From the NCBI RefSeq assembly GCF_003226855.1, contig NZ_CP029820.1:1-64000 (forward strand): a DNA stretch of 64,000 bases. Direction: 5' to 3'. Shown piece after piece: positions 35,521 to 39,006 of the stretch. The stretch comes from Blattabacterium sp. (Cryptocercus kyebangensis). GTDB taxonomy: Bacteria; Bacteroidota; Bacteroidia; Flavobacteriales; Blattabacteriaceae. How positions within the stretch are numbered: position 1 is the first letter of the stretch; each line of letters opens with the position of its first letter. The notes under the pieces were generated by a model. The model was not told where the DNA came from. It saw only the letters and a program-made list of their open reading frames with translations, and searched no databases. The position numbers were made by a program, and so were the translations under genes.

Positions 35521-35895
35521 TTATATTATTTTTTTTATAATAATGGTTTCTAATTGTTCTTCTATTATAAAGATTTTTTTATTATTTTTTTCTATAATTT
35601 CAATATAATAAATCATGGGAAAAGGTTTTTCTTTAAAAAGTTTTTTTTGAAAAAAGATATTTCCTTTTTTAAAAATATTTGATTTTATAAAAATAGGATT
35701 GCAAAATATAGTGTTTTTTTTACATTTTTGTATATTATTTTTGTTTATTTCAATTATTATTTTTTTATTTTTTATATTATTATTCAATATTTTTTGATGA
35801 TAAGAGGTCGAAGTATTACGATAAGAATAGTATAAAATTAAAATACCAATAATAAAACCTGTTAAAAAAAAAGAAAAACGCCTCATAAGATTCAT
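35521..35895 (-). CDS. Small single-pass membrane protein of unknown function
   Basis: 124 residues; a basic N-terminus and one transmembrane helix (about 7-24, FFLTGFIIGILILYYSY), then a lysine/isoleucine-rich soluble part with two cysteines near 58 and 65. I do not recognise a catalytic motif. It loosely recalls DUF4258-type proteins of flavobacteria that start with a similar membrane segment, but that is a weak memory match. The start could be either ATG (35895 or 35886). It lies upstream of rpmH on the same strand. Confidence 0.6.
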   Translation of the reverse strand: MNLMRRFSFFLTGFIIGILILYYSYRNTSTSYHQKILNNNIKNKKIIIEINKNNIQKCKKNTIFCNPIFIKSNIFKKGNIFFQKKLFKEKPFPMIYYIEIIEKNNKKIFIIEEQLETIIIKKII

Positions 35896-36156: not shown

Positions 36157-37428
36157 ATGTTGGATAAGCAAAAAACCATTGCAAAAAAAATTTCTTTGAA
36201 AGGAATAGGGTTATACACTGAAAAAAAAGTTACTATTACTTTTAAACCAGCTCCAGAACATACAGGGTTTATTTTTGTTAGAACGGATATAAAAGGTAAT
36301 CCTTGTATGAAAGCCAATCTTTCCTTTTTATTAAATGAAACAGAAAAAGGAATTATTCTAGAAAATAATGGATTGAAAATTCGAACTAGTGAGCATGTAC
36401 TTGCCGCTTTGACAGGTATGGATTTAGACAATGTTATTATAGAATTAGATAGTATTGAATCTCCTATAATGGATGGATCTTCCAAATATTTCGTAGAAGC
36501 CATTGAAAAAGCTGGAATTATAGAACAAAATGCAGAAAGAAAATATTTTTCAATAAAAGAAATTATATCTTATGAAGATTCAAAAACAGGAGGAGAAATT
36601 ATTGCTTTACCTTCTAGAAAGTTTGAAATAGTAATCCTAATGGATTTTGATTCAGAATTTATTGATACACAAAATGCTGTATTAAAACATTTAAATCAAT
36701 TCCAGAAAAAAATAGCAAGTTCAAAAACTTTTTGTTTCCTTTATGAAAAAGAAGGAAAAATTTTGAATCAAAAAGATTTATTTTCTTTACATTACACTTC
36801 TAACGAAATAGCTAAACATTATCTTTTAGATATTATTGGTGATTTAACTTTAATAGGAGTAAAATTAAAAGGTAAAATAATAGCTTATAAACCATGTCAT
36901 CATATAAATACTCAATTTGCAAAAAGATTGATAAAAAAAATTAAAATATTCAAAAAAAAAGATATTCCTAAATTTGATTTAACAAAAAATCCTCTATTTG
37001 ATATAAAAAGTATTATGAAAATTTTACCTCATAAACCTCCATTTCTTTTAGTAGATAAAATTATAGAATTAAAAGAAAATTATGTAATAGGAGTAAAAAA
37101 TGTCACTATGAATGAACCTTTTTTTATGGGACATTTTCCTAAAGAACCAATAATGCCTGGAGTTTTACAGATAGAAGCTATAGCACAAGTAGGAGGGATT
37201 CTAGTTTTAAACAAACTAAAAAATCCAGAATCTTATTCTACATATTTTTTAAAAATAGACAAAGTAAAATTTAAACAAAAAGTAGTTCCTGGAGATTTAC
37301 TAGTTTTTCAAGTAGATTTGTTAGAACCTATAAGGAGAGGAATTGTTCATATGCAAGGAAAAGGTTATGTAAATAAAAAACTGGTAGTTGAAGCAGAAGT
37401 ATTGGCAAAAATAATGAAAATTGATTGA
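36157..37428 (+). CDS. lpxC: Bifunctional LpxC deacetylase / FabZ hydroxyacyl-ACP dehydratase fusion, LpxC part shortened
   Basis: The fusion is typical of Bacteroidota: residues 1 to about 275 are LpxC, the zinc deacetylase committing UDP-acyl-GlcNAc to lipid A; about 280-423 are FabZ, a fatty-acid dehydratase. FabZ looks complete (LPHKPPFLLVD; MGHFPKEPIMPGVLQIEA). LpxC keeps the zinc ligands His80, His221, Asp225 and the His248 general acid, and Thr191-Phe192. However, only 30 residues separate Thr191 from His221, against 47 in E. coli (Thr191 to His238), so most of Insert II is gone, and the residue after the zinc His is Tyr222 instead of Lys. The protein is 423 residues, below the roughly 460 usual for the fusion. 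Confidence 0.9.
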   Translation: MLDKQKTIAKKISLKGIGLYTEKKVTITFKPAPEHTGFIFVRTDIKGNPCMKANLSFLLNETEKGIILENNGLKIRTSEHVLAALTGMDLDNVIIELDSIESPIMDGSSKYFVEAIEKAGIIEQNAERKYFSIKEIISYEDSKTGGEIIALPSRKFEIVILMDFDSEFIDTQNAVLKHLNQFQKKIASSKTFCFLYEKEGKILNQKDLFSLHYTSNEIAKHYLLDIIGDLTLIGVKLKGKIIAYKPCHHINTQFAKRLIKKIKIFKKKDIPKFDLTKNPLFDIKSIMKILPHKPPFLLVDKIIELKENYVIGVKNVTMNEPFFMGHFPKEPIMPGVLQIEAIAQVGGILVLNKLKNPESYSTYFLKIDKVKFKQKVVPGDLLVFQVDLLEPIRRGIVHMQGKGYVNKKLVVEAEVLAKIMKID

Positions 37429-37484
37429 TTTTTTTAAATTCCTATTAGATAAAGAAAAAATTTGGAACATTAAATTTTAATAAA

Positions 37485-38054
37485 ATGTATACAAATATCA
37501 AAAAAGGATTGTATATATTACACAATAATGAAATATACAAAATAATTGATTTTCTTCATGTCAAACCAGGTAGGGGATATGCTTTTGTAAGAACTAAATT
37601 AAAAAATATTATTACAGGTCATATTTTAGAAAATAATTTTTCAGCTAAACATAAAATAAAAAAAGAAAAAATCGAATCCGATTCGTATTGTTATTTATAT
37701 AGATATGGTAACTTATTTCATTTTATGAATACCAAAAGTTATGATCAGATACAAATTGAAAAAAAGTTAATGAAAAATATAGAATTCTTAAAAGAAGGAA
37801 TGAAATTCACTATTTTTTTTCATGTTAAAAATAAAAATAATAAAATTTTTTTATTTATAAAAATCCCCCCTACAGTTATTTTAAAAGTTAAATATACAGA
37901 ATCTGTAAAAAAAGGAGATACTATTAATAATGCTAGTAAAATTGCTGTTTTAGAAACAGAAAATAAATTATTAGTTCCTTTATTTATAGACTCTGGAGAA
38001 TACATTAAAATTAATACGGATAGTAAATCCTATATAGAAAGAGTTAGAAAATAA
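37485..38054 (+). CDS. efp: Elongation factor P
   Basis: Three-domain tRNA-mimic that relieves ribosome stalling at polyproline. Domain I (residues 1-62) has the loop VKPGRGYAFVRTKL; domains II and III follow, ending with TDSKSYIERVR, close to the usual family C-terminus. At 189 residues it is full length. The tip residue, lysine in the E. coli-type loop (PGKG), is Arg30 here (codon AGG). No modification enzyme (EpmA or EarP) is seen in the window. Otherwise the protein looks intact. Confidence 0.93.
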   Translation: MYTNIKKGLYILHNNEIYKIIDFLHVKPGRGYAFVRTKLKNIITGHILENNFSAKHKIKKEKIESDSYCYLYRYGNLFHFMNTKSYDQIQIEKKLMKNIEFLKEGMKFTIFFHVKNKNNKIFLFIKIPPTVILKVKYTESVKKGDTINNASKIAVLETENKLLVPLFIDSGEYIKINTDSKSYIERVRK

Positions 38055-38118: not shown

Positions 38119-39006
38119 ATGAGTATCTTGATAGATAAGAACATTCGAGTTATTGTACAAGGGTTAACTGGAAAAGAAGGCTTGTTTCATACTGAAAGGA
38201 TGATAAATTATGGGACTAATATAGTTGGAGGGGTAACTCCTGGTAAAGGAGGTAAGATTTATTTAGGAATTCCTATTTTTAATACTATGTATGATGCTGT
38301 TAATAATACTGGAGGTGATGTAAGTGTTATTTTTGTTCCTTCTTTATTCGCATCAGATGCTATTATGGAAGCAATCAGTATGAATATTAGAGTAATTGTA
38401 TGCATAACTGAAGGAATTCCAGTTTCAGATATGATTCGAGTAAAATATTTTTTAAAAGGAAAAAAATCACGATTAATTGGTCCAAATTGTCCTGGAATTA
38501 TTTCCTCGGAAAAATCAAAAGTTGGAATTATGCCTAATCTAGTTTTTAATAAAAAAGGAGGAGTAGGTATTGTATCCAGATCTGGAACACTTACTTATGA
38601 AGCCGCAGATCAAATAGTAAAATATGGATATGGAATTTCTACGGCTATTGGTATAGGAGGAGATTCTATTATTGGAATTAATATACAAGAAATTTTAGAG
38701 TTATTTTTGAAAGATGAGGAAACAAAATGTATTGTTATGATTGGAGAAATAGGTGGAAAATTAGAAATTGATGCTGCAGAATGGATAAAGAAATCAAAAA
38801 ATAAAAAACCAATAATAGGATTTATAGCAGGTCAAACAGCTCCTAAAGGACGTACAATGGGTCATGCTGGAGCTATTATAGGAAAAACATCAGAAACTGC
38901 AAAAGTAAAAATGGATATTATGAAAAAATGCGGAATACATATTGTTTCCTCTCTTGCATATATAGGAATGAAGGTAAATGAAATTCTTCATGAAAAAGAA
39001 AAATAA
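38119..39006 (+). CDS. sucD: Succinyl-CoA ligase (ADP-forming) alpha subunit
   Basis: TCA-cycle enzyme making succinate, CoA and a nucleoside triphosphate. The CoA-binding Rossmann domain starts with VQGLTGKEGLFHTERM; the phosphorylated histidine is His249 in TMGHAGAII. The SRSGTLTYEAADQI segment near 155-168 is conserved. 295 residues, full length. The beta subunit (sucC) is not in this window, unlike the usual sucCD pair. The last A of the TAA is also the first base of the pth start codon. Confidence 0.95.
   Translation: MSILIDKNIRVIVQGLTGKEGLFHTERMINYGTNIVGGVTPGKGGKIYLGIPIFNTMYDAVNNTGGDVSVIFVPSLFASDAIMEAISMNIRVIVCITEGIPVSDMIRVKYFLKGKKSRLIGPNCPGIISSEKSKVGIMPNLVFNKKGGVGIVSRSGTLTYEAADQIVKYGYGISTAIGIGGDSIIGINIQEILELFLKDEETKCIVMIGEIGGKLEIDAAEWIKKSKNKKPIIGFIAGQTAPKGRTMGHAGAIIGKTSETAKVKMDIMKKCGIHIVSSLAYIGMKVNEILHEKEK

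Follow-up and report, generated by a model that had tools for sequence, protein, structure and literature searches.

The window, which is the whole stretch of 64,000 nucleotides from Blattabacterium sp. (Cryptocercus kyebangensis) that we analysed, holds an open frame in which an LpxC-derived half is joined to a FabZ half, followed by two genes which we take to be efp, a name we assume from the layout in the 1.3-Mb relative G053, and, presumably, sucD (Table 1). Domain searches placed a FabA-like/FabZ domain at aa 290–414, C-terminal to the LpxC part, and the FabZ half exceeded the cut-offs for the 3-hydroxyacyl-ACP dehydratase FabZ in both TIGR01750 (163.1 bits, cut-off 155.15) and NF000582. 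In the Pfam search the LpxC part passed PF03331 (219.1 bits, cut-off 27), with profile positions 1–189 and 221–267 aligned and the stretch between them missing. With 168.9 bits against a cut-off of 187.25, the LpxC half stayed below the threshold of the LpxC equivalog TIGR00325.

The known LpxC/FabZ fusion of Bacteroidota (NF009667) agrees with the gene in the window in its two domains and their order, and the neighbours efp and sucD are found as in G053. Unlike this known fusion, the gene in the window is devoid of the Insert II motif, of His19 and Lys239 and of its partner genes, in addition to the low equivalog score. The fusion is noted in PMC3087551 and, in the case of Chlorobium, in PMC516016.

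Table 1. Position of the fusion gene, of its diagnostic residues and of the downstream genes in the window.
Feature	Position	Strand	Basis or comparison
lpxC/fabZ fusion gene, 423 aa	36157..37428	+	Open frame; NF009667 bifunctional LpxC/FabZ, 599.9 bits, cut-off 465
LpxC-derived half, about aa 1–278	36157..36990	+	PF03331 E 1e-64, two pieces; AlphaFold2 model vs 2ves_C
Y20; His19 in free-living LpxC (79/79)	36214..36216	+	Genus fusions: Tyr 36/37, Lys 1/37
E79-H80, retained (Glu78 and the zinc ligand His79 in E. coli)	36391..36396	+	37/37 genus fusions
T191-H221, Insert II remnant without GG-x-x-x-x-A-I-V strand	36727..36819	+	30 vs 71 residues; pLDDT low at 193–213
H221-Y222-L-L-D225; zinc ligands His238 and Asp242 retained, Lys239 replaced by Tyr	36817..36831	+	Alignment
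D229 (E. coli Asp246), retained here	36841..36843	+	Only 3/37 genus fusions have Asp246
H248 (E. coli His265), retained here	36898..36900	+	8/37 genus fusions in total
FabZ half, aa 281–423	36997..37428	+	TIGR01750; FabZ in 49/49 genus genomes; structure match
Junction lpxC/fabZ to efp	37429..37484	+	lpxA sits here in G053; absent from window
efp (presumed), next gene of old lipid A cluster	37485..38054	+	tblastn match at corresponding G053 place
sucD-like gene, rate control	38119..39006	+	In G053, second lpxD-like gene between efp and sucD-like gene

Insert II and the active site

As a yardstick we chose the corresponding LpxC/FabZ fusion of free-living flavobacteria (79 sequences, L034–L112) and of G053, in preference to E. 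coli LpxC. The distance from T191 to the zinc-binding histidine is 71 residues in all 79 free-living sequences and in G053, against 47 in E. coli. In the window, the distance from T191 to H221 (E. coli His238) is 30 residues, a spacing that a previous sequence-only reading of this DNA had given and that the alignment confirms, so that about 41 residues are gone relative to the free-living fusions. The stretch reads TFCFLYEKEGKILNQKDLFSLHYTSNEIAKH here, and TFSFLHELETLLEHGLIKGGDLNNAIVYVDK...NEAARH in a free-living relative. That the GG-S-D-A-I-V strand of Insert II is missing, which had also been claimed, holds for every fusion of the genus: all 79 free-living sequences are invariant in the GG and A-I-V columns, the GG columns are gaps in 37/37 Blattabacterium fusions, and the acyl-tunnel motif of Insert II is absent throughout. 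Across these 37 fusions the spacing ranges from 19 to 53 residues, with 30 and 31 in the nearest genomes G001 and G042. Because the motif is lost in every one of these fusions, we conclude that the loss of Insert II is ancestral to the genus, the length having changed further since.

The passages of PMC10254716 that describe E. coli LpxC list Met195, Ile198, Phe212 and Val217 as lining the acyl tunnel, His79, His238 and Asp242 as holding the zinc, and Lys143, Lys239, Lys262 and His265 as forming the phosphate pocket. Judged by these passages the missing strand belongs to the acyl tunnel, in agreement with the proposal that it helps to line the acyl-chain passage. All three zinc ligands are present in the window (H80, H221 and D225) and the FabZ half is over its cut-off; both had been described as intact, and rightly so. 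The residue after the zinc histidine is Tyr (Y222), likewise as described, in place of the Lys found in all 79 free-living sequences. Two changes extend the list: His19 has become Tyr (Y20), so that Tyr stands at both of these substrate-pocket positions, and Cys has taken the place of Gly in the KPGH motif (KPCH).

We assume catalytic or substrate roles for Glu78, Asp246, His19 and Thr191. Within the genus, Glu78 and His79 are kept in 37/37 fusions, His238 in 36/37 and Asp242 in 35/37, the remaining two having Glu. His19 and Lys239 are retained in none of the 37, Asp246 in 3, His265 in 8, Thr191 in 11 and Lys262 in 13. At least one of T191, D246 and H265 is lost in 34/37 fusions and all three in 23/37. 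Only the present genome, G001 and G042 have all seven chemistry residues (E78, H79, T191, H238, D242, D246 and H265), and of the ten residues scored these three are missing just His19 and Lys239, besides the insert. The replacements at T191 and Lys239 vary freely in the genus, and at two positions that are fixed in the free-living sequences nearly all fusions of the genus share a different residue (Y for H at 20, C for S at 193).

For a column test, the residue sets were fixed beforehand from the roles assumed for these residues and parsimony steps were counted on the tree. The four zinc and Glu78 columns change less than random columns that are invariant in the free-living sequences (P 0.025), and the seven catalytic or substrate columns change more (P 0.005). 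Taking residue class (hydrophobic or polar) as a rough stand-in for core versus surface, we found that lobe 2 has kept its hydrophobic invariants at the level of FabZ and has lost the polar ones, and that lobe 1 has kept its polar invariants as well as FabZ has (mean steps 1.93 and 1.38, P 0.64).

The AlphaFold2 model of the protein has a mean pLDDT of 79.7 and a pTM of 0.60, with low confidence at 193–213, the site of the former insert; 28 of the 30 rows of its alignment are free-living LpxC, which biases the model toward the LpxC fold. Model residues 2–262 match P. aeruginosa LpxC (2ves_C; Z 30.8, 2.3 Å, 251 residues), and residues 278–423 match H. pylori FabZ (2gll_A; Z 23.2, 1.9 Å, 145 residues). 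In the predicted fold of both lobes and in the zinc ligands the LpxC half is like the solved deacetylases of P. aeruginosa and E. coli, from which it differs in the absent acyl-tunnel strand and in the replaced phosphate-pocket residue Lys239.

The lipid A pathway

Profile searches for LpxA, LpxB, LpxD, LpxK and KdtA, with LpxH outside the search set, were run on 68 family genomes, of which 49 belong to the genus; both controls, E. coli and Bacteroides ihuae, were positive in all five. None of the five enzymes was found over its cut-off in any of the 49 genus genomes, and each was found in 1/68 family genomes, always G053. An intact lipid A pathway, which the sequence-only reading had suggested looking for, is hence absent from 49/49 genus genomes in these searches, and the LpxC half is an orphan of its pathway. 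Matches to the LpxA model below the cut-off occur in 46/49 genus genomes, of which the one in the present genome was identified: this weak TIGR01852 match fits serine acetyltransferase best (TIGR01172, E 1.3e-43, itself below cut-off), and we rejected it as a hidden LpxA. FabF is over its cut-off in 49/49 genus genomes, so that FabZ has a pathway to serve.

The locus order in G053 is lpxD, lpxC/fabZ, lpxA, efp, a second lpxD-like gene and sucD, and that in the window is lpxC/fabZ, efp, sucD. The two lpxD-like genes of G053 (L185, 3191–4186 and 6935–7960), which flank lpxC/fabZ-lpxA-efp, are both over the PF04613 cut-off.

An LptD_2-type outer-membrane protein, recognised by PF19838 (E 9.4e-36 in G027, L186:494–2812), has relatives in 36/49 genus genomes, which is odd given that the lipid A enzymes searched for are absent. 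The copy in the present genome lies outside the window (G000:C1:630527–632866, minus strand), with 57% identity and a frame of 795 codons. There is no significant association between this protein and the LpxC half (present in 29 and absent in 8 genomes with the half, against 7 and 5 without it; Fisher P 0.26). Loss of LptD as a sign of lost LPS export was considered and dropped; PF04453 matched, among the 68 genomes, the LptD_2 protein of G027 alone and is a poor probe in this phylum, having missed G053 and the control Bacteroides ihuae.

In the 2013 metabolic model of Blattabacterium (PMC3819652), all lipid IVA activities are orphan except EC 3.5.1.108, which is treated there as an annotation error, the gene being re-assigned to EC 4.2.1.58 and 4.2.1.59. 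The 2012 model describes two strains as unable to completely synthesise LPS (PMC3287516). Term searches of PMC6128925, PMC9603385 and PMC6039017 gave no mention of lpx or fabZ, and no description of an orphan LpxC under selection in Blattabacterium came up in the literature searched, which leaves out most subscription papers.

Selection on the LpxC half

Pairwise codon models were fitted to 17 close pairs of fusion-keeping genomes, covering 31 of the 37 fusions (G001, G046 and G027 were used twice; G044, G003, G028, G036, G011 and G023 are in none). With dS saturated in some pairs, the LpxC core gave a median dN/dS of 0.106 (range 0.049–0.169), and w=1 was rejected in 17/17 pairs, the smallest LRT being 28.6. 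The medians were 0.064 for lobe 1, 0.144 for lobe 2, 0.467 for the Insert II remnant and 0.036 for FabZ; among the control genes they were 0.070 for sucD, 0.062 for lepA (16 pairs) and 0.098 for pth (16 pairs), and the upstream carboxypeptidase-like gene gave 0.093. Neutral in-frame evolution simulated at the observed dS of four pairs gave w of 0.49–2.14 and mean amino-acid identities of 0.17–0.66 for the core, against observed identities of 0.80–0.95. The core of the LpxC half is under strong purifying selection, and on the strength of dN/dS and the simulated neutrality we reject pure frame-holding.

In absolute terms every part, FabZ included, has a higher dN/dS in the symbionts than in the free-living bacteria (0.036 vs 0.007 for FabZ), as expected for a symbiont, and relative rates are thus the informative measure. 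We compared the substitution rates of the two halves, a check the sequence-only reading had proposed. Relative to FabZ, dN of the LpxC core in the genus is 1.81, near the 1.61 of 26 free-living pairs, and dN of Insert II is 10.6 in the genus vs 0.92 in the free-living pairs. From this we conclude that the core is still selected and that the insert alone has been released. The dS of the LpxC half is similar to that of the neighbouring genes, which argues against constraint at the DNA level as the cause of the low dN/dS.

Repeated loss of the LpxC half

The LpxC half stands in a stop-free frame in 37/49 genus genomes and is broken or gone in the other 12 (G002, G004, G007, G008, G009, G015, G016, G017, G024, G030, G033 and G039). 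The FabZ part was matched in 49/49, including all 12 without the LpxC half, so that the genus has FabZ both with and without the N-terminal LpxC-derived domain. On a five-protein tree, in which some nodes are weakly supported, the 12 genomes form 8 groups, corresponding to at least eight losses if loss is irreversible. The LpxC half is dispensable over evolutionary time. In 10 of the 12 LpxC-less genomes (G030 and G015 are outside this set) the FabZ frame starts 26–53 residues ahead of its LPH motif and often includes a fragment of the former LpxC tail. No clear pattern of rate change in FabZ after LpxC loss emerged from 17 comparisons; with FabZ standing alone in 12 genomes, this indicates that FabZ does not need the LpxC module. 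The proposal that the LpxC half is held in frame only because FabZ lies downstream hence stands in part: the half is dispensable and FabZ is kept in all 12 genomes that lost it, but the word "only" is contradicted by the dN/dS of the core, which lies far below the neutral simulations.

In G041 (L168) the LpxC frame is open, with His238 replaced by Cys, His19 by Lys and DGSS by DYSY; the score is the lowest among the main LpxC matches (129 bits), and the sister genome G019 is intact. This is likely decay in progress.

Discussion

Pseudoenzymes are folded relatives of enzymes that are retained without the reaction of their family. With moderate confidence we read the LpxC domain of Blattabacterium as a module of this kind, folded, zinc-holding and idle, and kept for the sake of FabZ. 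The ancestor of the genus would have lost LpxA, LpxD, LpxB, LpxK and KdtA, and its LpxC the acyl-tunnel insert, His19 and Lys239. The LpxC domain could probably not simply be dropped, because it forms one polypeptide with FabZ, whose fatty-acid pathway persists, and may thus have stayed on as an enzymatically idle module. Its core, first lobe and zinc site would have been preserved by selection, most likely because FabZ would suffer if the domain fused to it were unfolded or lacked its metal. The half would then have been shed only once FabZ could be translated from its own start, at least eight times. As in pseudoenzymes generally, the fold and core are selected and catalytic residues are lost in most of the genus; differing from these, the present genome still has its chemistry residues, and no scaffolding or regulatory partner was seen for the candidate module. 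Inactivity as LpxC, one of two possibilities raised before, is what the sequence data point to, with partners in 0/49 genomes and both the insert motif and Lys239 lost in 37/37 fusions. The loss of LpxC activity, the occupancy of the zinc site and folding or support of FabZ as the selected property are what we infer from these data. Four observations run counter to the pseudoenzyme reading. All seven chemistry residues are intact here, in G001 and in G042, where the chemistry may still be possible. The polar conservation of lobe 1 would seem to exceed the apparent needs of folding alone. FabZ persists by itself in 12 genomes without a clear shift in rate, and the LptD_2-type protein is kept in 36/49 genomes, which is unexpected where lipid A is missing.

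A new task outside lipid A, for which the zinc-bearing domain tethered to FabZ would serve as a hydrolase on another substrate or would have a binding or regulatory role in fatty-acid synthesis, strikes us as unlikely, although the preserved polar residues of lobe 1 and the zinc site would allow for it. Lobe 1 is as constrained (0.064) as sucD (0.070) and lepA (0.062) and retains its polar invariants at the level of FabZ; Glu78 and His79 are kept in all 37 fusions, His238 in 36 and Asp242 in 35 (with Glu in two), and the replacements at positions 20 and 193 are near-fixed in the genus. On the other side stand the at least eight losses of the half, the absence of T191, Asp246 and His265 together from 23/37 fusions and the free variation of the residues that replace T191 and Lys239; no candidate substrate or partner was found.

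We give even less credit to a passive, functionless LpxC half that is kept open only by read-through into FabZ. The missing lipid A pathway, the erosion of Insert II and of active-site residues and the repeated loss would all fit, but w=1 was rejected in 17/17 pairs, the core identity of 0.80–0.95 contrasts with 0.17–0.66 under neutrality in four pairs, and the rate relative to FabZ hardly differs from that in free-living bacteria.

That the protein is a working LpxC with altered acyl specificity, the other possibility raised before, appears very improbable. All seven chemistry residues are kept here, and this genome is among the 36/49 with an LptD_2-type protein; against it, the insert motif, Lys239 and His19 are lost, the weak LpxA-like match fits serine acetyltransferase best, and LpxA, LpxD, LpxB, LpxK and KdtA, which would make or use the substrate, were not found in this genome. 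Without a known substrate for the LpxC half, the idea of a changed specificity fails. A sequencing or assembly error behind the short LpxC, for which we found no support, can practically be dismissed, as G001 and G042 have nearly the same gap (30 and 31 residues) and the motif is lost in all 37 fusions.

Read as a pseudoenzyme module, the LpxC domain offers a natural experiment on how gene fusion shapes gene loss, in which an enzyme of a dead pathway escapes deletion through its fusion with an essential one and is kept folded by selection after losing its former task. The graded series within one genus, with the chemistry residues complete, eroded, decaying or gone, allows a direct test of what becomes of a fused pseudoenzyme. 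For annotation, "LpxC" in Blattabacterium does not indicate that lipid A is made, and the published renaming to FabZ activities as an annotation error overlooks a second domain under selection.

Two further observations concern the neighbouring frames. An efp frame was found at the locus in 30/50 loci searched (37485–38054 in the window; L136–L185), with mere remnants in some others, so that efp, judged at this locus, seems to have been lost repeatedly in the genus. A hypothetical frame of 124 aa upstream of the fusion (35521–35895, minus strand) is recognisable in just 7/50 loci and seems to be decaying across the genus.
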